36,055 nucleotides of DNA, from assembly GCA_019745975.1 (NCBI GenBank), contig JAIESQ010000104.1, positions 1 through 36,055 on the forward strand. Direction: 5' to 3'. Shown here one piece after another: positions 13,642 to 26,137 of the stretch. This stretch comes from Pirellulales bacterium. Lineage in GTDB: Bacteria; Planctomycetota; Planctomycetia; Pirellulales; JAEUIK01. The stretch's first letter is position 1, and each line of letters opens with the position of its first letter. The translations under genes were made by a program, and so were the position numbers. The notes below the pieces were generated by a model. The model saw nothing but the letters and a program-made list of their open reading frames with translations. It was not told the origin of the DNA and made no database searches.

Positions 13642-13971
13642 TTACGCCGAGAACGAACTGCCGCAACCGCAGCTCTTCACCGCGTTCGGATTCTCGAACG
13701 TGAAGCCGCGCTTCTCGAGTCCGTCGTAGAAATCGAGCTTCGTGCCGTCGAGGTACAGGTCGCTCTTTTTATCGACGATGACCGTGATGCCGTGTTGGAC
13801 ACTCTTGCTATCGGCCTTCTCATCGAAGTTGGTGTCGAACCCCAAGCTGTACGAGAAACCGCTGCAACCGCCGCCGGTGACACCGACACGCAGCATGTTC
13901 CCCTCGAGCTTCTGGTCCTCGATGATTCGCTTGATTTCGTGAGCGGCCTTTTCGGTCAGCGTGACAGCCAT
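13642..13971 (-). CDS. A-type iron-sulfur carrier (IscA/ErpA/HesB family)
   Basis: The 109-residue protein is of standard family length. The three conserved cysteines are present: C36 in GGGCSGFSY, and C101 and C103 in SCGCGSSF near the C-terminus. These bind an iron or a [2Fe-2S]/[4Fe-4S] cluster, which A-type carriers pass to apoproteins in the cytosol. I chose the ATG at 13971 ([10 protein letters not shown]) because it matches the usual family start; an in-frame ATG at 14016 would add 15 residues without family support. No isc or suf genes are adjacent, so it is an isolated carrier. A terminator follows it. Assigning it to IscA, ErpA or SufA specifically is not possible from sequence alone. 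Confidence 0.95.
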
Positions 13972-14102
13972 TTGAGTGCGATGCTCCGCTGGGAGTGGAG
14001 GTTCGGGGGTTTTCACATACCTTGTTGGCTAAATTATACAATCGGCAGGCCAAAGCAAAGGGTGAATAGGAAGTGGCCGCGGACGGAGCCGATCGCTCGA
14101 TG

Positions 14103-14442: not shown

Positions 14443-15021
14443 CTACGGAATCAGTTCCACCGGCGGCAGCTCGAGGTCGAACACCGTCTCGAAATTTGCC
14501 ACGCTCGGAGTCACCCCGGCCGGGCAAATCTGCAATTGGATCTGCGTTCCCCCTTCGGATTCCAACAGCATGTAGATGCGGTGCCGCTCCTGCAGACGGT
14601 GCATGCCGTAGACATCGCCGTGGTGGCCAAGCTGATTGCCGAAAATGTCTCGATACCAGACGCCGCCGATCTGCTTGACCGTCCAGGTGGTTTCGCGCGA
14701 GAGAACGCGCTCTTTCGGGCTGGGCGCGATGTACATGAACTGGTTGGCCATCGTGACGTCCTCGCCCAGCGAGTACATCGTGGTATCGGCCAGGATCAGG
14801 CGGTCGTAGCGAAATCGCAGCACGGTGCCGACCGGGATGTACCAGAACGGGCGGCTCTCGATGCGCGCCGGGCGACCGCCATCGTAGACCGGCAGCGGGA
14901 ATTTCTGCTCGAGCCGCGGCTGCACGCGGCCGTCGCTGTAGGCCGGGTATTGCCACTGCGCCGACGCCGAACCGACCGACAACAAAACCAACACAACTGC
15001 GCATGCGACTTGCTTGATCAC
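14443..15021 (-). CDS. Secreted protein of unknown function
   Basis: The 192-residue protein has a clear signal peptide (VACAVVLVLLSVGSASA, cleaved near residue 21). The mature part is about 170 residues, mostly beta-type sequence, with many Tyr and Trp residues (FWYIPVGTVLRFRYD, GVWYRDIFGN). I do not recognise a domain. A purine-rich GGAGAAGAG precedes the ATG at 15021. The gene lies between the two copies of the long hairpin element, in the opposite direction to the DUF1080 gene. A periplasmic or surface role is all that can be inferred. Confidence 0.8.
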   Translation of the reverse strand: MIKQVACAVVLVLLSVGSASAQWQYPAYSDGRVQPRLEQKFPLPVYDGGRPARIESRPFWYIPVGTVLRFRYDRLILADTTMYSLGEDVTMANQFMYIAPSPKERVLSRETTWTVKQIGGVWYRDIFGNQLGHHGDVYGMHRLQERHRIYMLLESEGGTQIQLQICPAGVTPSVANFETVFDLELPPVELIP

Positions 15022-15238
15022 GCTCTCTTCTCCGGGGCGGAATTGCGATCGGACGAACTACCAGAACTGGCTGCCGAGAGGAACGTGTCCTAGCCGCGGT
15101 TGGCACCGTCGCACGCGGCCCGACAACCGGCAGAATCGTTTACCTCGGCAGGATGCGAATAATTCCACCATTAGTTGGCGGTCAGCGAGTCGGCTAGTCC
15201 CCGTAGCGAGGATTTTTCTGAATTTGCCAGCGAGCGAT

Positions 15239-15333
15239 GCGACAGGACGCTAAGCCCAGGGAAGGGGGCCAACGTCGCACGTTTTTAGGAACGACGGTTC
15301 CCCTCCTTCCCTGGGCTTGGAGCGCTGTGTCGC
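15239..15333. repeat. Long hairpin element, copy B
   Basis: AAGCCCAGGGAAGG (15252-15265) pairs perfectly with CCTTCCCTGGGCTT (15305-15318). Outer arms GCGACA (15239-15244) and TGTCGC (15328-15333) extend it to a 95-base imperfect palindrome. It has the same orientation as copy A about 1.1 kb away. The rest of the spacer from 15022 to 15560 shows no gene; it contains the promoters of the two divergent genes. Confidence 0.78.
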
Positions 15334-15548
15334 TCACAAGTGCGAAGCCGCCGGGGTGTTGGAGACCCGTGGCTGGCTTATATTCACGAGCGCTGGGAGC
15401 TGACCGAGATGGTGCCGAGGGTCGCCGGCTGCTGCTTGAAATGGAAGGCGACCGTGCCGCAGCCCGCACCGTCGCCCAATGGGACGGGCTCGAACTTGTC
15501 GAGATCGGCTACGGGTTGATTAGTCGCAGTGAGGTTTACTTCGATCCC

Positions 15549-15554
15549 AAGGAG
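15549..15554 (+). promoter_or_regulatory. RBS fixing the DUF1080 start
   Basis: AAGGAG lies 6 bases before the ATG at 15561. The open frame extends upstream through hairpin copy B to 15237, but that part is spacer. Confidence 0.75.
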
Positions 15555-15560
15555 CCAAAT

Positions 15561-16280
15561 ATGACGCAACTTCAAACAGCCCGCTTGGTTCTATTGTCGA
15601 TTGCCGTGGTACTGATCGCTTGGAGCGCGGGCCTGACGCGGGGCGAAGAGCCCGCGAAACCGGTCGCGACGGCGCTCGTTCCGCCGCGCACTGGCAAGAG
15701 CGAAACGATCGAGCTGTTCAACGGCAAGAACCTCGATGGCTGGGAAGGGCACGAGAAGCTGTGGAGCGTGCGCGATGGCGTGATTGTGGCCCGCAACACG
15801 GAGACCATTCCGGTCAGCACCTACCTGCTGACGAAGCGGAAGTTCACCGATTTTCGCTTGACGTGCACCGTCAAGCTGGTCGAGTCCGAAATGCACTCAG
15901 GCATCGCCTTCTGGGGGCGCAACGCGCCGGAGCATGGCGATCGCTATACCTACGCGGGACACCTGGTGATGTTTCCGTCGGGCTGGGGAATGTACGACCT
16001 GTTCGGCCGCAACGGGCTGCCGGTCGATGGGGCACCGGCCCGCCAGGTCGGCAAACAGCACGATTGGAACGACCTGGAGATTCTGGCGCAAGGCAACCGC
16101 GTGCGCGTGGTGGTCAACGGAACTCAGGTGGTCGATTGGTCCGACCCCGAGCCAAAGCGAATTCTCGAAGGGCCAATCGGACTGCAACTCCATTCGAACA
16201 AAGTCCCCCAGGAGATTCATTTCAAGAACCTGGTGCTGACGACATTTCCCGACGACAAGCTGACGACGGTGAAGCCGTAG
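15561..16280 (+). CDS. DUF1080 (3-keto-disaccharide hydrolase-like) secreted protein
   Basis: The 239-residue protein has a signal peptide (LVLLSIAVVLIAWSAGLTRG). The mature part is a single DUF1080 domain with the family hallmark ELFNGKNLDGW at its start, then GVIVARN, SGIAFWGR and, near the end, GPIGLQLHSNKVPQEIHFKN. The fold is a concanavalin-like beta-sandwich. Some members hydrolyse 3-keto-glycosides, and many planctomycete copies are uncharacterised, so a periplasmic glycan-related role is likely but unproven. The spacer of 71 bases to the transporter gene leaves co-transcription open; the functional link to that gene is not obvious. Confidence 0.93.
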   Translation: MTQLQTARLVLLSIAVVLIAWSAGLTRGEEPAKPVATALVPPRTGKSETIELFNGKNLDGWEGHEKLWSVRDGVIVARNTETIPVSTYLLTKRKFTDFRLTCTVKLVESEMHSGIAFWGRNAPEHGDRYTYAGHLVMFPSGWGMYDLFGRNGLPVDGAPARQVGKQHDWNDLEILAQGNRVRVVVNGTQVVDWSDPEPKRILEGPIGLQLHSNKVPQEIHFKNLVLTTFPDDKLTTVKP

Positions 16281-16351: not shown

Positions 16352-17941
16352 ATGAGCGACATTTACTGGCCAGGGGTGGGGGCCGTGGTGGCGCTCTACG
16401 GGGCGTTTATCGTCGTCGGCTGGCTCGGGGCGCGCAAGACACGACACGGTGGCGCGAGTGATTTGCTGGTTGCCGGCCGCGCGATGCCCCTCTGGATCGC
16501 CACGCTGACGATGACCGCCACCTGGGTCGACGGCGGGTATTTGCTCGGCACCAGCGAGGGAGCGCAAACGAGCCTCGCCCTGGGAATTCAGGGTGGATTC
16601 TGCTTCGGAATCAGTTTGATTCTGGGGGGCCTGTTTTTCGCCGGACGCATGCGGAGGCTGGAGTACACGACACTCGTCGACCCGTTTGAATCGCGGTTCG
16701 GCAAGGGCTGGGCGGCCGTGCTCATGCTGCCGGCACTCTTTGGCGAGACGATTTGGGCCGCCGAACTGATGGTCGCCATCGGCTCGACCATGGCCGTCAT
16801 TTTGGGGCTCAACCTAACGACTTCGATCTTGTTGTCGGCGGCAATCGTGACCTTGTATACGGTATGGGGCGGGATGTGGGCCGTCGCCTATACCGACGTC
16901 GTGCAATTAGGCTTGATCCCAGTGGGACTATTGATTGCGATTCCCTTTGCCCTGGACCGGGTCGGAGGCTGGGAGACGTGCTCAAGTCGTTACGAGGCAG
17001 CGCACGGCGAGGCGGCACGCCTCGTCCCTCCACTTCGGGCAACCGAAGGTTATTGGCAGCGTCCCACGATCCTACGGTGGTGGGAGACGAGCGCCATGCT
17101 GATCATGGGGGGCATCCCCTGGAACTGCTATTTCCAACGGGTCCTGTCCTGCAAAACTCCCAACAGCGCCCGTTGGCATTCGCTGCTCGCTGGATTGCTC
17201 ACGATGCTGTTGGTCGTTCCGCCGCTGCTGCTGGGGATGGCGGCCAGCGCGTACCAGTGGCCAGCCGAACAGGCAGCAGTCCTGGCGGCCGAACCAGCCC
17301 TCACGCTCCCTTGGTTGCTGCGGGAAATGACGCCCCACCTGGTGGCCGTCCTTGGCCTCGCGGCGATCGTCGGTGCGGTGACTTCAAGTTTTAGCGCGTC
17401 GATTCTCTCGGCCGGTTCGATGTTGAGCTGGAACGTGTACCGCCGCCTGCTGGCGCCGCAGGCGACCGTCGCGCAGCTTAAGCTGGTGATTCGTTATTCC
17501 ATCCTCGCGCTGGGAATCGGCGCGGCCGTCTTCGCGCTGCGGGTCGCCAGCGTGCAACAGCTCTGGTTTTTTACCTCTGATCTCGTGTTCGTGCTGTTGT
17601 TTCCGCAGTTGGTCATGGCCTTGTTTGATCCGCGAGCGAATCGCTATGGCTCGATGGCGGCGTTCGGCGTATCGCTCGTCTTGCGGCTGGCGGGTGGTGA
17701 ACCGCTGTTGGGATTGCCGGCGTTAGTTCCCTACCTCGATTCGATTGCCGTCGCGCTCCCCGGCGAACCCGAGCAATGGTACGATCCCGAAACTGGGACC
17801 AGCGCGATTCCGTTCAAGCTGATGGCGGCCGTAGCTGGGCTGGTGGTGCTGCCCATCGCGTCGCGGCTTACGGCGCGCTGGGATGCGCCGCGACCGCTTG
17901 AGCGGATCAATCCCTTAGCTGATCTGCTGCCGAGTGGGTGA
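16352..17941 (+). CDS. Sodium:solute symporter closely resembling the choline transporter CHT1 (SLC5A7)
   Basis: This 529-residue protein has about 13 membrane segments and belongs to the sodium:solute symporter family. Compared from memory with human CHT1, matching blocks run along most of its length: MTATWVDGGYLLGT, SLILGGLFFAGRMR, TLYTVWGGMWAVAYTDVVQL, MGGIPWNCYFQRVLS, SDLVFVLLFPQL and LRLAGGEP. Tryptophans W58, W135, W257 and W405 fall where human CHT1 has W62, W141, W254 and W406, aromatic residues that line the choline pocket, and E245 falls at the position of the pocket Asp242. I infer sodium-driven uptake of choline or a similar quaternary amine at the inner membrane. The phosphatidylcholine synthase gene follows by 19 bases and would use that choline. 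Substrate is inferred, not shown. Confidence 0.9.
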   Translation: MSDIYWPGVGAVVALYGAFIVVGWLGARKTRHGGASDLLVAGRAMPLWIATLTMTATWVDGGYLLGTSEGAQTSLALGIQGGFCFGISLILGGLFFAGRMRRLEYTTLVDPFESRFGKGWAAVLMLPALFGETIWAAELMVAIGSTMAVILGLNLTTSILLSAAIVTLYTVWGGMWAVAYTDVVQLGLIPVGLLIAIPFALDRVGGWETCSSRYEAAHGEAARLVPPLRATEGYWQRPTILRWWETSAMLIMGGIPWNCYFQRVLSCKTPNSARWHSLLAGLLTMLLVVPPLLLGMAASAYQWPAEQAAVLAAEPALTLPWLLREMTPHLVAVLGLAAIVGAVTSSFSASILSAGSMLSWNVYRRLLAPQATVAQLKLVIRYSILALGIGAAVFALRVASVQQLWFFTSDLVFVLLFPQLVMALFDPRANRYGSMAAFGVSLVLRLAGGEPLLGLPALVPYLDSIAVALPGEPEQWYDPETGTSAIPFKLMAAVAGLVVLPIASRLTARWDAPRPLERINPLADLLPSG

Positions 17942-17960
17942 GAGATAGGAACCAACCGAT

Positions 17961-18731
17961 ATGAAAGCGGGTTTGCAACAGGAGCGCATCGACGTCGTGG
18001 CGCGTTGCTACGCTTGGGGCGTGCACCTCTATACGGCTTGTGGGCTGCTGGTGGCGGGAGCGATCGCCTACGTGTTGGTAGGGGAGCGGCCGGACAAGTT
18101 CCGCCTGGCGTTCCTGTTGATGCTCGTGGCGACGATTATCGACGCGACCGACGGGTTCTTTGCGCGCCGCGCGCGCGTTAAGGAAGTGCTCCCCGGCTTT
18201 GACGGTCGGCGGCTTGACGACATCACCGACTTCCTGAACTACGTCTTTCTGCCGCTCTTCTTGATGTACCAGGCCCGGCTCTTGCCCGACGGCCAGAACG
18301 GCTGGCTGCTCGTACCCCTGGTGGCTAGCGCCTACGGCTTTTGCCAGGTCGCGGCCAAGACCGACGACGGGTTCTTCCTCGGTTTTCCGTCGTATTGGAA
18401 CTTGATCGTCTTCTACTTGTACACGCTCGACCCGCCCCCCTGGTTCACGATCGGAGCGCTAGCGCTTTTCTCACTGCTTACCTTCGTGCCGATGCGCTAC
18501 TTGTACCCCTCGCAGCCTGGCCGGTTGAATAAGTTGTCGCTGGTCTTGGGGGCGGTCTGGGGAGTACTCCTGCTGGTGATTCTGTGGGGAGCGCGTACGG
18601 AGCCGCTTGATGGCGATCGAGCCCAGCGACTGGCCTCGGTATCGCTCTTCTATCCGCTGTATTATCTGGTGGCCTCGGCGGTTGTAACCGTGCGCTATTG
18701 GCTGGCCGCTCGTGAGCTGTCCGATCGATAG
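17961..18731 (+). CDS. pcs: Phosphatidylcholine synthase (Pcs-type CDP-alcohol phosphotransferase)
   Basis: The 256-residue integral membrane enzyme would condense CDP-diacylglycerol with choline to give phosphatidylcholine and CMP in one step. The CDP-alcohol phosphotransferase motif is complete: D61, D64-G65, A68-R69, G82, D86 and D90. The interval between AR and G is 12 residues, the spacing reported for bacterial Pcs, whereas most family members have 8. GFPSYWNLIVFYLY and FVPMRYLYP in the second half also recall Pcs. About seven to eight hydrophobic segments and the length fit (Pcs is about 240 residues). It follows the CHT1-like transporter by 19 bases, suggesting one transcript for choline uptake and use. 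Another alcohol acceptor remains possible. Confidence 0.87.
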   Translation: MKAGLQQERIDVVARCYAWGVHLYTACGLLVAGAIAYVLVGERPDKFRLAFLLMLVATIIDATDGFFARRARVKEVLPGFDGRRLDDITDFLNYVFLPLFLMYQARLLPDGQNGWLLVPLVASAYGFCQVAAKTDDGFFLGFPSYWNLIVFYLYTLDPPPWFTIGALALFSLLTFVPMRYLYPSQPGRLNKLSLVLGAVWGVLLLVILWGARTEPLDGDRAQRLASVSLFYPLYYLVASAVVTVRYWLAARELSDR

Positions 18732-18873: not shown

Positions 18874-19986
18874 TTGACTCAGCTCGGCACTACGACCGCG
18901 CCCGATCGGGCCAAGATCGCTGACCTGCCCCTGGCGGAGGTCGAACGGCGTTTGGGGCCGGATACCTTGATCTCGGTCGTGATTCCCTGCTTCAACGAAG
19001 AGGCCGTACTCGAGCGGCTGTTCGATCGGCTTGACGATGCAGCCAAGACCTGGGGTGCCCCGTTTGAAGTGATTCTGGTCGACGACGGTTCGCGCGATCG
19101 CACGTGGCCAATGATGCTTGCTCAGCACCGGCGCGATCCCCGTTGGAAACTGATTCGCTTTGCCCGCAACTTCGGGCACCAGACAGCCTTGCGCGCTGGC
19201 CTGCACGCCGCCAGCGGCGACGTCATCGCGGTGCTCGACAGCGACCTGCAGGACCCGCCCGAGATCCTCGATCAGTTTTTCGCGAAGTGGAGCGAAGGCT
19301 ACGACGTGGTGTACGGCGTGCGTGAGAACCGCAAAGAGCACGTGTTGCTGCGCACAGCCTACGCCGGCTTCTACCGCGTGCTCTCGATGCTCGCCGAGGT
19401 CGACGTGCCGCTCGATGCGGGCGACTTCTCAGTGATCGACCGCCGCATCGTCGAAGAGTTGAAGCGCATGCCAGAGCGCAAGCCGTTCATTCGCGGATTG
19501 CGCTCCTGGGTCGGCTTCCGGCAAGTGGCGTTACCCTACGACCGTGCGCCGCGCGCTGCCGGTGAAACCAAGTACAGTTTGAGGAGGCTCGTTGGGCTGG
19601 CGATCGACGGAATTCTCAGCTCGTCGCTGGTGCCGCTGCGGTTGGCAACTTGGATCGGAGCTTGCGTCTCGCTGATTGCCTTCCTCGGAGCGCTCGTGAC
19701 GCTGGCAATCGGACTGTTCCCCGCGGCTTTCGAGGCGATCGGGATGCGTCCCGTGCCGGGTACGGCAAGCGTTATCATCTCCGTGCTGTTCATCGGCGGC
19801 GTGCAGCTTCTGTGCATGGGCATTACTGGTGAGTACGTCGGCCGCATTTACGAGAATGTCAAAGGGCGTCCCTTCTGGGTCATCCACGAGACCGTTGGGG
19901 TCGACGAGCCCGAGGCCGTGACCACGCCTGGCAGGTTGGAGGAACAGCGCGCGGGATCGCTCAAAGGCACGTCGCGAGATTACTGA
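18874..19986 (+). CDS. GtrB/DPM1-like family 2 glycosyltransferase
   Basis: The protein has 370 residues when read from the TTG at 18874; no in-frame ATG precedes the conserved N-terminus, and an in-frame stop lies close upstream. Residues of about 30-260 are a GT-A domain: SVVIPCFNEE, LVDDGSRDRT, FARNFGHQTAL and the DSDLQDPPE metal/nucleotide site. Two membrane helices follow (about 255-330), ending in GVQLLCMGITGEYVGRIYENV, as in polyprenyl-phosphate glycosyltransferases. The enzyme would transfer a sugar from a nucleotide sugar to a polyprenyl phosphate on the cytoplasmic face, supplying lipid-linked sugar to extracytoplasmic transferases. The two polytopic TPR proteins further on are candidate users, but this is inference. 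Confidence 0.93.
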   Translation: MTQLGTTTAPDRAKIADLPLAEVERRLGPDTLISVVIPCFNEEAVLERLFDRLDDAAKTWGAPFEVILVDDGSRDRTWPMMLAQHRRDPRWKLIRFARNFGHQTALRAGLHAASGDVIAVLDSDLQDPPEILDQFFAKWSEGYDVVYGVRENRKEHVLLRTAYAGFYRVLSMLAEVDVPLDAGDFSVIDRRIVEELKRMPERKPFIRGLRSWVGFRQVALPYDRAPRAAGETKYSLRRLVGLAIDGILSSSLVPLRLATWIGACVSLIAFLGALVTLAIGLFPAAFEAIGMRPVPGTASVIISVLFIGGVQLLCMGITGEYVGRIYENVKGRPFWVIHETVGVDEPEAVTTPGRLEEQRAGSLKGTSRDY

Positions 19987-20075: not shown

Positions 20076-23000
20076 TCACGAGCCGGCAAGCGGCACCGTT
20101 GGCACTCGATACGGCCGTGCCTGGCGATAAAGCCGGCGACGTTCCTGGATTTCCACTGCTAACGGAAACTGCTTCGCGGCGATCGCTAGCTTGGCTGCTT
20201 TGTCGGCGGTTTGCGTAGCCTCCGAAAAGCGCTGTGCTTCGGCATACGCGGCGGCCAGCGTATCGAGGTAAGACGGTTGCTCGCTCTTGGCACATACTCC
20301 TTCGGCCAGGCGCACCGCGTCGCTTCCGGAGCGGAGTGCATCCACTGGGGAAGTCGCCAGCGCCCAGGCAAGACTATTGGTCACATCGAGGCTATCGGGA
20401 GTGAGGCGGTAAGCCTCACGCAACGTGCTCACGGCCTCGGCCGACTCACCCAATTGCGATAACGCGCGGCTCAACTGCAGGCGGGGCCCCGGATCGTCGG
20501 GATGTCGCTCGACGATCTCGCGAAGCTGCTCCAGGCCAGCGCTCTTGTCTCCCTGCTGGAACCGCACCAGGGCCAGCGTCAATCGGGCTTCGGAGTTGTC
20601 GGGCTCCGAGGAAAGAACCTGCTTGAGATGGGCTGCCGCTTCTTCGAGGCGACCCTGCTGCCAGCGTCGGTTGGCGAATCGCAGCTCGCATTCCGTGGCA
20701 CGATCGGGCTCAATCTCCAGCACCGCGTCGAACTGGGCGCGGGCTTCGGCATCGCGGTCGAGCGCCAACAGCACCTTGGCGAGCTCCCAGCGCGCGGCGA
20801 CAAACCCCGGATTGATGTGTTGGGTGAGCTCCTCCAACTCGGCCAGGGCAGTCGGCACATTCTGTTGCGACAAGTTGGTAACGGCACGCAGGAACCAGGC
20901 TCGATGATCGCGTGGAGCAATGGCGATCGCAGCGTCGAAGTCGGCCGTGGCACCGGCGAAATCTTGAAGATGGAATTTCGTCCAGCCACGCTCGACGAAA
21001 TACTTGGATTCGCGAGGATTTCGCGAAACCGCGTGATTCAGATCGGCTAGCGCCGCCAGGTGATCGTCGGCCTGCTGATGTAGCCGGCCGCGCTCAAACC
21101 AGGCTTCGGCGGAGTTCGGATTCTGCTCGATGGCCAGCGCGAGATCGGCAATCGCGCCGGCGGAGTCGCCTCGCTTTTCGCGATAGAGCGCGCGTTGGAT
21201 GTAATAGGCATCGCGCCGGTCTGCCGGAACGTCGTCGACCGCCGTGTAGCCGGAGAGTAGATCGGCTGGCGTCGCGGCCGACGCTAACTGATCGGCGCTC
21301 TTCGTGCTGACGAACCCTACCGTGCCGGCCATCATTTCCTGCCAGGTTTGATGGCCGTAGCAAATGATGCGATTGGGATCAGGATTGCGGAGATTGTCGG
21401 CCGAATTGTCGAAGTGCGCTACGCAGTGGAGACGCGTCCCCTTTGGCAACGCCTTGGGACGGCGCAGCAGGTAGACGGTCTGCCAATCAAAATCGTAGCG
21501 CGGGATGTCCAAGAGTACTTCCCGATCGCCGTTGGGGTAGTGTGCCTCGAAGCGCATCGATTTGCCGCGCAAGTGCATGTGAGCGTTGAGCCAAATGAGC
21601 TTCGAATCTTCCAGAAACGTGTACCAAGCGACGACGGGTTCGTTAGCGGCTCCCGGCGGGATGGCGAAATCGGTCGATTCGGCTAGTGACGAACTGAAGC
21701 GACTCGACGACTTTCGCTCCACGGTCTGGGGATCGGCGAATCGCAGCGCCACGCTCGTGCGATCCAACTGGCGGCGCCCGCTCGCCGTGTAGTGCATTTC
21801 GAACACAATCTGCGAACCGGCCGGTACGAGGATCAGGCCCGAATCATCGCCCAAATCGGGTAGTTCCTCGGCGTCGGCTGGATGGCCGACGTAGCCGGTG
21901 AAGTGAACCCCCGGTACGTACCCACCAATTTCCGAGACTTTGCCTTGGCGACGCAGCTTGAAGAAATCCCCCTTGGGAGCGATGAACACTGCCATGTGAT
22001 GCACCACCGCGCGGCAGTCGGGTCGGGCCTGCACGGCCGATAACCATTTGTCTTCCGTGAATCCGGGGTCAACCGTGAAATACTGATAATCGAGAACCCC
22101 TTCAGCCGGAACTTCGAACGGCTCGTCCTGGATAAAAAGCTCCCGATCCCAGGGTGTATTGTCGACCGTGGCAGCAAAATCAATCGGTGGTGGTAATTCG
22201 GCTTTGTCCCCCTCGGGAGCGCCGTGCGCGACCCATTCGCCGATTAGACGCTTTTCTTCGTCCGTCAAACGCGAGTCGTTGAGAAACTCACCGAACTCGG
22301 GGTTCGCATGCCAGGGGGGCATCCGCCCCGTGCTCACGACTTCGCCGATCATCAAGTCCCAACCAATCACGTCGTCGTAGGTCAAGAGCGGAAACGGCGC
22401 GATCTCACCTGGTCGATGGCAGCCCTGGCAGCGTTGCTGAAAGATCCGCGAAATCTGCTTCGACCACGTCACGGGACTATCGTTGTCGGCCGGGCGCTTT
22501 CGGCCAATCAGGCAGCCCGGCGCGACAGTCGTAGGCATGGTTACCGGCTTACCCGCCAGCAGCTCGTCGAGCGCCACGGCCAAATCGTGTCGGGTTGGAT
22601 GCGGTCGCTGATAGTTCACGCCTCGGTCGATGCCGTATTGATCGTCGATCCGACCGCGGTAGCGTACGCGGCGCGCGGCGTCGAGCACGAATACCTCGGG
22701 TGTGCGCGTCGCGCCAAATGCCGCGGCTACCTCGCTCGCTGGGTCGCGCAACACGGGAAACGGAATCGCATAGGTGCGCGCGTAGTGCTCCACTTCTCGC
22801 AAATCGTCCTGGCGGTTGCTGTCGACGGCCAAGAATGCCACGCCGCGCGACGCCAACTTGTCGTGCAAAGCGACCAGGCGACCTGTGTAAAGTTGGACCA
22901 GGGGGCACTCAACTCCAACGAACGCCACGACGACCAGTGGATGGTCGGCGAGAGCGGAGAGCCGATGCTCGACGTTCGAAAGGTCTTTCAGCGCGAAATC

Positions 23001-23171
23001 GCCGATTTGGCGGCCAATGGTCTCGTCGGCGGCGGCCGCGGTGGGCGGCTGCGCTGCAACCGCCGGAGTGGCAGTTTCTTGCGCGACACCCCGCAGACGC
23101 AAGGGGTCGGCCAGGAGCAGTCCAGCGACGACAGTCACAATGGTCAGCCAATGGCGAATGCGCGTCACCAT
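20076..23171 (-). CDS. Redoxin / c-heme / copper monooxygenase-like / TPR fusion protein
   Basis: This 1031-residue exported protein has a hydrophobic signal (about 8-23). A redoxin domain (55-205) carries one cysteine, C89 in VECPLVQLY. A c-type heme site CQGCH lies at 248-252. Residues of about 340-625 resemble the two-domain core of copper type II ascorbate-dependent monooxygenases: HHM at 391-393, MHY at 459-461, HMH at 531-533 and EMM at 612-614, matching in order the two copper sites of peptidylglycine monooxygenase. TPR repeats follow from about 680 to the end. An oxidative role in the periplasm is likely, but the substrate is unknown. The open frame extends to 23357, but that part runs through a palindromic repeat; I start at MVTRIRHWL. 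It lies downstream of the 23354-26137 gene on the same strand. Confidence 0.85.
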   Translation of the reverse strand: MVTRIRHWLTIVTVVAGLLLADPLRLRGVAQETATPAVAAQPPTAAAADETIGRQIGDFALKDLSNVEHRLSALADHPLVVVAFVGVECPLVQLYTGRLVALHDKLASRGVAFLAVDSNRQDDLREVEHYARTYAIPFPVLRDPASEVAAAFGATRTPEVFVLDAARRVRYRGRIDDQYGIDRGVNYQRPHPTRHDLAVALDELLAGKPVTMPTTVAPGCLIGRKRPADNDSPVTWSKQISRIFQQRCQGCHRPGEIAPFPLLTYDDVIGWDLMIGEVVSTGRMPPWHANPEFGEFLNDSRLTDEEKRLIGEWVAHGAPEGDKAELPPPIDFAATVDNTPWDRELFIQDEPFEVPAEGVLDYQYFTVDPGFTEDKWLSAVQARPDCRAVVHHMAVFIAPKGDFFKLRRQGKVSEIGGYVPGVHFTGYVGHPADAEELPDLGDDSGLILVPAGSQIVFEMHYTASGRRQLDRTSVALRFADPQTVERKSSSRFSSSLAESTDFAIPPGAANEPVVAWYTFLEDSKLIWLNAHMHLRGKSMRFEAHYPNGDREVLLDIPRYDFDWQTVYLLRRPKALPKGTRLHCVAHFDNSADNLRNPDPNRIICYGHQTWQEMMAGTVGFVSTKSADQLASAATPADLLSGYTAVDDVPADRRDAYYIQRALYREKRGDSAGAIADLALAIEQNPNSAEAWFERGRLHQQADDHLAALADLNHAVSRNPRESKYFVERGWTKFHLQDFAGATADFDAAIAIAPRDHRAWFLRAVTNLSQQNVPTALAELEELTQHINPGFVAARWELAKVLLALDRDAEARAQFDAVLEIEPDRATECELRFANRRWQQGRLEEAAAHLKQVLSSEPDNSEARLTLALVRFQQGDKSAGLEQLREIVERHPDDPGPRLQLSRALSQLGESAEAVSTLREAYRLTPDSLDVTNSLAWALATSPVDALRSGSDAVRLAEGVCAKSEQPSYLDTLAAAYAEAQRFSEATQTADKAAKLAIAAKQFPLAVEIQERRRLYRQARPYRVPTVPLAGS

Positions 23172-23242
23172 CGATCGCCGGCGATCATCAGCAGGTCTCG
23201 CCGAGCGGGCACAAAGTCTAGAAGCAGATTCAAAACCTGGTT

Positions 23243-23314
<72 letters not shown>

Positions 23315-23353
23315 CCGACGCGGGTTCATCGCCGGTTCTGAAACTGCTTCTAC

Positions 23354-26137
23354 TCACGGCACGCTCCCGCTGAGTTTTTCCTGCACGCGCTGCAGGTTCT
23401 GTTGTGCCCCAGCATGATTCGGATCAATTTGCAGGGCCTGTACAAAACAATCGCGTGCCGCGGGCCATCGTTCGCGACGGGCCAGTACCATGCCGAGGTT
23501 GTTGTAGGCCTCGACATAGTTTCGGTTCAGTTGAATCGCCGCGCGAAGCTGCAACTCGGCTTCTTCGAAACGTTCGGTTCTCGCCAGTAAGACGGCCAAG
23601 TTGTTGTAGGGCTCGGCAAACTTGGGCTGCGCGGCGATCGCCTCGCGAAACAAGCGCTCGGCCGGTTCCAATTGCGATTTTCCCAGCAGCAACAATCCCA
23701 GGTAATTCTTCGCTTCCGCGTAGTCGGGTTGACGCGCGATGGCGTCACGGAAGCGCCGCTCGGCATCGGCGCCGCGCTGCTGCCGCAGACGCGCGACGCC
23801 AGCGGCGACCGCCGCATCGGCCCGTTCCGGTTCGCGCCGCGACAACTCGTCGAATTCGCGCACCGCCTCGTCGAATTTGCCAGTCAACGCCGCGATCATC
23901 CCCAACTGATAGCGCGCATCGGCATGCCTTGGGTTTCGGGCCAAGAGGGCGCGCAGTGCAGCTTCGGCCTTGATCGTGTCGTTCTTTCGCAGATAAGCGA
24001 TCGCCATGTGATAGCGCGCGTCGTCGAGGTTGGGGTCGCGGTCGATCGCGGCCTGAAACTCGGCCAGCGCGACGTCGAACTTTCCTTGCCCCATTCGTCC
24101 CAGACCCAGCGCGTCGAAGGCCCCGGCCCGCGTGTCGTCGAACCAGGCAACTTCGTGTGCGTAGGCCAGTCCTTCATCGTACTGACCGGACTCGAGCAAC
24201 TGTTTGGCCAACTCGAGCTGTAAATCGAGGTCCGCGGGCTTATCGGCCAAACCTTTACGCAAGAGTTCGATCGCCTGCGGCCGGCAGTCCGCCGCGGCCA
24301 GCGATCTGGCGCGCGAGACGAGCGACAGCGTTGGTCCTTCGCCGAGCGAGGGACTGTACCACAAGTGGTCGATGTACCAGCGATCGAGCGTGGCGTCGTC
24401 TGAGGCGACGCCCGTAAGATCCTGCCGAAGGACAATCAGTGGCGACGGAAGGTGGTCGGAGAAGAGAATCTCTTGGCGATCATCTTGTGGATTCGGAAAC
24501 GGCACCGTGATTTGCCCCTGGCTGTAGTCGACGTTGTCGGTAACAACGCACATCAGTCGCCGGGGCCGATCCTTGATCAAACGAGCGACTGCGAACCACC
24601 CCTCGGCTTCGAATGCGTTGACGGCGTAGCCGCCCACCGGGCGAGCAACGTAGCCGAGCCTGGGCAGCGCCAGATAGCAGTCGAACGGACCGCCAGCGAT
24701 CAGAGCTTCGTCGGACTTCAGTTCGGCTGCGACCTTGTCCAGTGCCGCGATGGTGCTGCGTTGATCGACTCGATACTCGTGGCTACGCTCCAGCAAGTCG
24801 CTGGATCGCGCCCAGGTTTGCAGTTGTGGAAACAACAACCCCGAACGGTTCACGAGGTTGACGCCGACTAACAGCCAGATGCAGCCGATCGCCAGCGGCC
24901 GCCAGCGCGACTCTCGCAAGCACAACGACCCAGCGATCACGTACAGAAAGGGCACCGCCATCGTGAGGTTACGCGGCAGCGGGTCTTCGACGAAGAGTAC
25001 ACCGACAAAAATGCCACTCACGATCAGCCAGGCCAGGAACAACTCGGGGCGTTGCAGCAACCGTGTCGAAACGGTCGCTTCGCCAGCTCCCGCGCCGGCC
25101 GCAGCGCGTTGAAGAAGCAGCTTACGCCCCCCCACTCCCGCGACGATTACGGTCGCGGCGGCCAGTACGACGACCAGTGCAGCCACGTCGGGATACAAAC
25201 TCAACGACGCGCTCCACCCGAGGTAGTCGTGAAGTGCCGCGAAACCGTTTGCCGGTCGAGCTTCGAAGTACACCCAACCTGCGATCAGACCCTGCAAAAT
25301 GAGCAAGGCACTTAGCAGCACGAAACCAAGGATGTCAGCCACCCTACTTCGGCGGGCTGCGCTGGGCAGGCGGCTGCCGTCGTGCACGGACAAACGCGTT
25401 GCCACCAGCGACACGATTGCATAGCTCCAAATCGCGGTCGTCGCGATCAAGCAGGAGCTCTTGATGGCAAAGCCGGCCAGCGTCGCCAAGGCCGCCCAGC
25501 CGAGACGGTTGCCTACCGCCAAGAGGCCGGCCACGGCGACGAACGTGGCCGCGGCCAGGTCGTTACCGATCATGTCGACTTGGACGCTAAAGAGCGGCGT
25601 CGTCAACACCGCGGCCGTGACCGCCAAGCTCCCCCACCAGCCGCCGATGGGCCGCAACCAGGCATAGACCACCAGGAGCAAGGCGGCCGCGCAAGCGAGG
25701 GTTGCCAGGTGCATGACAGCGAATACGGCAGTCGGACTCAGTCCAGCACGAAAGAGCAGAGCGACGAGCGTCGGCACCACGCTCGTCCCCTGGGCGCGCG
25801 GCCCGCCTGCACGGAAAGGTTTTTCAACTTGCAGCAGGCGGCGATAATCAAATTGGTTGGTATCCAGCCAATCCGCTTCGACAAACAAGCTAGTGGCGCT
25901 ACCGCCATAGGGCGGAGCCGGCAGAATGCCGATGCGCCAGCCGCTCAGTCCAACCCAAGTGGCAAGCCAGATCGCCGCCCAACGCCAAACAGCGCTCCGG
26001 CGCCCGACCTCGCCACGCTTGCCAGCGCGTAATTCGCTCGCTTCCGGGTGCCCCGAGCCCTCTCTCGGCAGGTGGGGCTCCTTGGGGCGCGACTCGCCGA
26101 GCGGCGCCGTGGTGCCCGATGGAGAGCGGGGTTTCAT
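23354..26137 (-). CDS. Polytopic membrane protein with C-terminal TPR array (GT-C-like)
   Basis: From the ATG at 26137 the protein has 927 residues: a cytoplasmic tail, roughly 10-12 membrane segments (about 55-440), a soluble domain and about eight TPR repeats (about 640-927). The first extracytoplasmic loop holds SLFVEADWL, an acidic motif placed like the catalytic loop of GT-C glycosyltransferases. It is a clear paralogue of the divergent gene 26334-28559: both share FSxQVDM, RSTIAA and LALPRxGYVxRPxxGYxVNAFE. I infer a lipid-sugar-dependent glycosyltransferase at the inner membrane, with TPRs for partner binding, but no catalytic residue is proven. Extending to 26254 adds only a low-complexity stretch without RBS. 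The spacer to the redoxin gene contains a palindrome. Confidence 0.82.
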   Translation of the reverse strand: MKPRSPSGTTAPLGESRPKEPHLPREGSGHPEASELRAGKRGEVGRRSAVWRWAAIWLATWVGLSGWRIGILPAPPYGGSATSLFVEADWLDTNQFDYRRLLQVEKPFRAGGPRAQGTSVVPTLVALLFRAGLSPTAVFAVMHLATLACAAALLLVVYAWLRPIGGWWGSLAVTAAVLTTPLFSVQVDMIGNDLAAATFVAVAGLLAVGNRLGWAALATLAGFAIKSSCLIATTAIWSYAIVSLVATRLSVHDGSRLPSAARRSRVADILGFVLLSALLILQGLIAGWVYFEARPANGFAALHDYLGWSASLSLYPDVAALVVVLAAATVIVAGVGGRKLLLQRAAAGAGAGEATVSTRLLQRPELFLAWLIVSGIFVGVLFVEDPLPRNLTMAVPFLYVIAGSLCLRESRWRPLAIGCIWLLVGVNLVNRSGLLFPQLQTWARSSDLLERSHEYRVDQRSTIAALDKVAAELKSDEALIAGGPFDCYLALPRLGYVARPVGGYAVNAFEAEGWFAVARLIKDRPRRLMCVVTDNVDYSQGQITVPFPNPQDDRQEILFSDHLPSPLIVLRQDLTGVASDDATLDRWYIDHLWYSPSLGEGPTLSLVSRARSLAAADCRPQAIELLRKGLADKPADLDLQLELAKQLLESGQYDEGLAYAHEVAWFDDTRAGAFDALGLGRMGQGKFDVALAEFQAAIDRDPNLDDARYHMAIAYLRKNDTIKAEAALRALLARNPRHADARYQLGMIAALTGKFDEAVREFDELSRREPERADAAVAAGVARLRQQRGADAERRFRDAIARQPDYAEAKNYLGLLLLGKSQLEPAERLFREAIAAQPKFAEPYNNLAVLLARTERFEEAELQLRAAIQLNRNYVEAYNNLGMVLARRERWPAARDCFVQALQIDPNHAGAQQNLQRVQEKLSGSVP

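Follow-up and report, generated by a model that had tools for sequence, protein, structure and literature searches.

The closest described relative of the transporter discussed here is sfCHT from Salimicrobium flavidum, whose structures (9RWS and 9RWT) appeared in May 2026 together with evidence for Na+-dependent choline uptake and for inhibition by hemicholinium-3, and whose role was discussed as osmoadaptation (PMC13220886). A bacterial CHT as such is already known, with structures and transport data, so that the bacterial CHT1 counterpart suggested in the initial annotation of this DNA had been anticipated in print. The same paper calls the roles of prokaryotic CHT homologues unclear and does not settle how chloride dependence arose; its main text does not mention an operon, gene neighbourhood, genomic context, planctomycetes or phylogeny, and phosphatidylcholine appears there in the reference list only (PMC13220886). 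In human CHT1 (SLC5A7), chloride is held in the loop 63-VGGGY-67, and two patient variants are described, G65E as potentially doing away with chloride binding and D349N as abolishing transport (PMC11589582). As regards the lipid, Agrobacterium, Sinorhizobium and Brucella import choline through ChoXWV and pass it to Pcs, which makes phosphatidylcholine (PMC3972451, PMC8371380); there, however, the importer is an ABC system, whereas the locus described here carries a symporter and its genome has no ChoX-type match (a family whose cut-off was reached by none of 14 control genomes either). Phosphatidylcholine has been reported in planctomycetes (PMC3035269, PMC12254169), and a pairing of CHT with a phosphatidylcholine synthase gene (pcs) was absent from the matches listed among titles and abstract openings of open-licence PMC papers.

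The window, by which we mean the whole 36,055-nucleotide stretch of Pirellulales bacterium DNA that was analysed, holds two ATG-started ORFs with the short gap between them that had been noted at the outset (Table 1), and we think it very probable that these form a minimal module by which external choline is imported and turned into phosphatidylcholine. The symporter would draw choline in through a four-tryptophan cage, driven by the sodium gradient as in CHT1 and sfCHT, and the Pcs-like enzyme would then convert choline and CDP-diacylglycerol in one step to phosphatidylcholine and CMP. Such a two-gene module had been proposed in the initial annotation and is the best reading of the genomics, which supports it well through placement of the transporter among the CHTs, the residues of the choline and Na2 sites, the catalytic motif of the partner, and adjacency and co-occurrence that recur across genomes; from these observations we infer choline as the substrate, sodium coupling, the Pcs reaction and co-transcription of the pair. 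Choline transport by the window protein gains further support from the experimental precedent of sfCHT (PMC13220886).

Table 1. Positions in the window of the two genes, the gap between them and the codons and motif discussed in the text.
Feature	Position	Strand	Basis
Na+/solute symporter of CHT type (529 aa), D-type (Asp-loop) clade; probable choline importer	16352..17941	+	ORF, Pfam, tree, model
Codons W58 (cage; CHT1 W62), V59, D60 (CHT1 G64, chloride loop)	16523..16531	+	alignment, DNA
Codon F85 (CHT1 Y91)	16604..16606	+	alignment
Codon W135 (cage; CHT1 W141)	16754..16756	+	alignment
Codon D182 (CHT1 D188, Na3 ligand; kept)	16895..16897	+	alignment
Codon W257 (cage; CHT1 W254)	17120..17122	+	alignment
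Codon S348 (CHT1 D349, Na3 ligand; changed)	17393..17395	+	alignment
Codon W405 (cage; CHT1 W406)	17564..17566	+	alignment
Intergenic gap, 19 bases	17942..17960	+	ORF list, DNA
Phosphatidylcholine-synthase-like CDP-alcohol phosphotransferase, 256 aa	17961..18731	+	PF01066, NCBIfam Pcs models, structure model
Catalytic motif DxxDGxxAR-x12-GxxxDxxxD, residues 61-90	18141..18230	+	motif scan; motif from PMC3972451

The family of the transporter is clear from several directions. It matches Pfam SSF (1.4e-33), and a phmmer search of all PDB sequences ranked sfCHT (9rws, 422 bits) above human CHT1 (279) and SGLT1 (54), with a profile from ten relatives giving 611, 446 and 92 bits for the same three proteins; the long matching blocks with CHT1 noted in the initial annotation are thus real and far beyond chance. 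Its structure model (pLDDT 91.5) is closest, in a library older than the sfCHT entry, to human CHT1 (9bfj; Z 46.6, rmsd 2.5, 471 residues aligned) and next to SiaT (Z 33.8), as befits an SSS symporter with the LeuT-type fold. In a tree of 81 rows (from 92 aligned, after removal of three fragmentary rows, two poor outgroups and six same-genome second copies), 75 rows make up a CHT-type group with support 100/99, outside which lie SGLT1 and five other SSS rows. Other SSS branches, such as those for proline and pantothenate, were rejected at 25-55 bits against NCBIfam models, far under the cut-offs and set against 422 bits to sfCHT, while the general SSS superfamily model gave 142.5 bits (cut-off 184). 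Sequence, tree and fold therefore all give the CHT branch, and not one of the other SSS branches to which the initial annotation had looked for contrary evidence. Calling the protein CHT1-like is nevertheless only part of the matter, since human CHT1 groups with bacterial CHTs that have glycine in the chloride loop (G-type) whereas the window protein falls in a separate clade (D-type) with changes at the chloride loop and the Na3 site, G64 to D60 and D349 to S348, which had been missed.

At the choline site the correspondence is close. The four pocket tryptophans that had been picked out align with the cage of CHT1 exactly as proposed, Y63 (CHT1 Y67) is also present, the Na2 ligands A56, V59, A342, S345 and S346 match A60, V63, A343, S346 and S347 of CHT1, and the gate residues R43, Q262 and R263 are kept; cage, Na2 and gate residues are likewise those of sfCHT. 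The tyrosine Y91 of CHT1 is replaced by Phe in 52/53 D-type rows, the window protein among them. The ion sites are a different matter, in that sfCHT has Gly in the chloride loop and Asp at the Na3 position where the window protein has Asp and Ser. The canonical chloride loop is missing, 59-VDGGY-63 standing in its place, and the CHT1-type Na3 site is incomplete, because S348 and A349 replace D349 and S350 although D182 is kept. Changes equivalent to G64D and D349S, falling as they do on functional CHT1 sites, count against the module and mean that the CHT1 mechanism is not simply transferable. Since VDGGY replaces VGGGY, with Asp in every D-type row, we have filed the transporter as a divergent variant of the CHT clade rather than as a canonical CHT.

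The partner passes the PF01066 model for CDP-alcohol phosphotransferases (24.1 bits, cut-off 22), and its own structure model (pLDDT 78.8) is nearest to the phosphatidylserine synthase 7pow (Z 14.5, rmsd 4.1, 197 residues aligned), so that family and fold agree. All five NCBIfam Pcs models match most of its length at 121-160 bits, the next family reaching 27 bits; the cut-offs, at 300-440, were set for named lineages (Legionella, Pseudomonas, Agrobacterium, Borrelia and Bradyrhizobium types), and scores this far under them count against the module and mark the window protein as a putative lineage outside the five named groups. It does, however, share with those groups the motif with a 12-residue AR-to-G interval, D61xxD64G65xxA68R69-x12-G82xxxD86xxxD90, just as the initial annotation had it, and the x8 form is absent. 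The x12 motif is found in 45/47 partner rows (the misses being L087 and the stub L062), and all five Pcs models match each of the ten partners tested.

The adjacency of the two genes is recurrent in relatives. Of 57 genomes, made up of 56 relatives and the one that contains the window, ten have the transporter (at least 377 bits; next match 122), and exactly these ten have Pcs (at least 159 bits). In each of them the two genes adjoin on a single contig, nine times in tandem and once, in G001, divergently; the co-occurrence gives a Fisher value of 2e-11, uncorrected for relatedness. An even sample of 392 planctomycete-phylum genomes, again including the window's own and with thresholds of E <= 1e-60 for the transporter and E <= 1e-15 for Pcs, has the transporter in 3, Pcs in 5 and both in 3 (Fisher 1e-6, uncorrected for relatedness). 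The genes adjoin in the window and in G100 and lie on different contigs in G121, while G427 and G140 have Pcs alone, and these two of the five Pcs genomes count against the module. Among planctomycetes, then, the pairing expected from the initial annotation is borne out in its tight linkage, although the module itself is rare.

A wider scan of named genomes, limited to the best 80 of 85 relatives and seeded by two short window-like peptides, one of them typical of the window's own clade, gave 79 loci, 72 of CHT type (L042-L113), six of these 72 being contigs also counted in the 57-genome set. Within these best 80 of 85 relatives, CHT loci span Planctomycetota, Acidobacteria, Deltaproteobacteria, Bacteroidetes, a Nealsonbacteria bin and others, and pcs is present in 37/72, in tandem, convergent and divergent order: at 26 of 44 D-type loci, all tandem (887 bases apart in L055, and as a stub at the contig end in L062), at 9 of 25 G-type loci (two tandem, five convergent and two divergent), at one of two loci with Cys in the chloride loop (convergent), and at one further locus, the fragment L106. 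On the tree, pcs adjacency was gained or lost at least 12 times. When whole genomes were searched for 30 loci that have no complete local pcs, the gene turned up in 16. Of the 18 D-type loci with no local pcs, 13 have it in the genome (in three of these 13 the contig stops just behind the transporter), and it is absent for the other five (four Bacteroidota and L080), which again counts against the module; of the 16 G-type loci with no local pcs, 10 genomes were searched and one (L102) has it.

Genes for another probable use of choline lie beside most of these G-type loci. Again among the best 80 of 85 relatives, 14 of the 16 adjoin homologues of genes for betaine synthesis or its control, namely choline dehydrogenase, betaine-aldehyde dehydrogenase, GbsB or CudC, a choline regulator. 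NCBIfam names come from three loci, L083, L091 and L095, whose genes served as queries, the remaining assignments being by similarity; 12 of the 14 belong to one family, Cyclobacteriaceae. The nine pcs-linked G-type loci gave no match to the betaine-gene queries, one of them (L088) having a GMC oxidoreductase gene beside pcs. That one transporter family adjoins two distinct pathways which both consume choline supports choline as the substrate, and the gene pairs furnish concrete roles, in phosphatidylcholine synthesis for one CHT branch and in the making of betaine for part of a second. One might argue from the betaine-linked loci, and from two genomes with pcs, G048 and G100, whose matches to the choline dehydrogenase family reach 566 and 455 bits (cut-off 732), that choline serves mainly for glycine betaine or nutrition in our organism too and that pcs is a side use. 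We consider this quite improbable, because the 44 D-type loci (best 80 of 85 relatives) are free of betaine genes save for L066, where an aldehyde dehydrogenase matched weakly (81 bits), and because the best betA-family match in the window's own genome reaches just 37 bits. That genome also has no BCCT match, and with neither BCCT nor ChoX-type match and with betA-family matches so weak, the window transporter is, of the families tested, its best candidate for a choline importer.

Other readings of the pair keep a matched transporter and enzyme, or doubt that choline is carried well. The substrate might not be choline but some other amine alcohol or quaternary ammonium compound, such as an ethanolamine with part of its methyl groups, from which the partner would make the matching phospholipid; D60, F85 and F406 do differ from the CHT1 binding site, and methylated phosphatidylethanolamines are reported from some planctomycetes (PMC3035269). 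We hold this to be unlikely, in view of the intact four-tryptophan cage, of a partner to which all five Pcs models match while no other family comes close, and of the finding that Y91F in CHT1 barely alters apparent choline affinity (PMC13220886). That the transporter no longer carries choline well, being degenerate or a sensor, is an idea invited by the two changed positions important in CHT1, to which we give hardly any credence, since the reading frame is intact and the clade is widespread and conserved, with 46 distinct rows in one supported group. Choline import for phosphatidylcholine thus stands as our preferred reading, and it need not be the sole source of the lipid: PS decarboxylase is found in 9/12 genomes, the window's own included, so that a PE-based route to phosphatidylcholine is possible, and PF04191, the phospholipid methyltransferase family, has matches in 10/12 but is too broad a family for a methylation route to be called.

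What is new here is that the window transporter belongs to a distinct CHT clade in which G64 has become Asp and D349 has gone while the choline cage and the Na2 ligands are kept. Over the 92 aligned rows, the G64 column holds Asp in 53/53 D-type rows and the D349 column holds Ser in 51 and Ala in 1 of 52 readable rows, with Asp in none, whereas all 28 G-type rows, among them CHT1 and sfCHT, carry Gly at 64 and Asp at 349 (same-genome second copies, five D-type and one G-type, are counted in these figures). The D-type rows form one clade of 46 rows (support 99/100) in the 81-row tree, which persists when 16 differing columns are removed (SH-aLRT 100); position 349 then changes once on the tree and position 64 twice. 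The second change is consistent with the Cys of L078:5001-6527 and L081:3526-5109, a small CHT lineage with Cys in its chloride loop (WVCGGY) that keeps the Na3 Asp. As the changes at 64 and 349 fall on one branch, coupling between them is beyond statistical test. Distant SSS proteins have Asp at 64 in 0/21 readable rows, which points to a derived Asp loop, and Asp at 349 in 12/18; against a derived Asp loop, three Acidobacteria SSS proteins (L116:5001-6287, L117:5001-6314 and L119:5001-6311), all of them devoid of the tryptophan cage, share Asp at 64 and Ser at 349 with the D-type. Two D-type CHTs from bins labelled Acidimicrobiia (L068) and Cyanobacteria (L082) sit together among Acidobacteriota in the tree, reflecting either horizontal transfer or wrongly binned contigs.

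The simplest reading of the Asp loop is that the negative charge of D60 takes the place of the chloride of CHT1, though with less certainty than we attach to the module. Taken further, the D-type would have gained a carboxylate in the chloride site as it lost the Na3 Asp and so become a chloride-independent choline importer, perhaps moving fewer Na+ per choline, an idea that we entertain tentatively and would put somewhat short of even. Working exactly as CHT1 does, with bound chloride, two sodium ions and a neutral Asp loop, strikes us as doubtful though hardly far-fetched: the fold as a whole is retained, as are the cage, D182 and the Na2 ligands, and SGLT1, which couples two sodium ions, has Thr at the D349 column, for which reason the firm claim that Na3 is lost was dropped. 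What tells against it is the clean division of the clades at both columns, together with the reported harm of patient variants G65E and D349N at the same sites (PMC11589582). A CHT1 mechanism would touch the ions only and is compatible with the choline module. If D60 does replace chloride, the D-type would be fitted to bacteria of low-salt settings that put choline into membrane lipid, Gly-loop CHTs would work mostly in bacteria of saline ones, in many cases to supply betaine, and a natural exchange would reveal the role of chloride in the neuronal choline transporter and how replaceable it is. The Asp clade is in this sense a natural variant that makes the CHT chloride question testable, and we regard it as the most valuable lead from this locus.

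A link with salt is suggestive only: protein acidity looks as if the D- and G-type CHTs divided along salinity. Net acidic residues per 100, in proteins around the loci, have a median of -1.02 for D-type and +1.42 for G-type (34 and 18 genomes; Mann-Whitney 4e-6; GC-adjusted G-type effect 1.77 +/- 0.64), in a comparison with a crude gene caller, small samples and confounding by relatedness and GC. It used loci L042-L113 with added regions L143-L182, an earlier version having used the loci alone. There are exceptions on both sides: G464, G458 and L089 are G-type and negative, and the window's own D-type genome stands at +0.9.

The pair is flanked upstream by a 3-keto-disaccharide hydrolase-like gene and downstream by a family 2 glycosyltransferase. 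None of five neighbouring window genes (13642-14016, 14443-15021, 15237-16280, 18874-19986 and 20076-23357) had a match at 1e-8 among the 3950 ORFs of 90 loci, so that a wider conserved operon was rejected and the conserved unit is the transporter and pcs. The last of the five, a 1093-residue protein on the reverse strand, has one weak match to L042 (8.3e-6) among the matches listed at 1e-5, and to the eye resembles a redoxin-type part followed by tetratricopeptide-type repeats.
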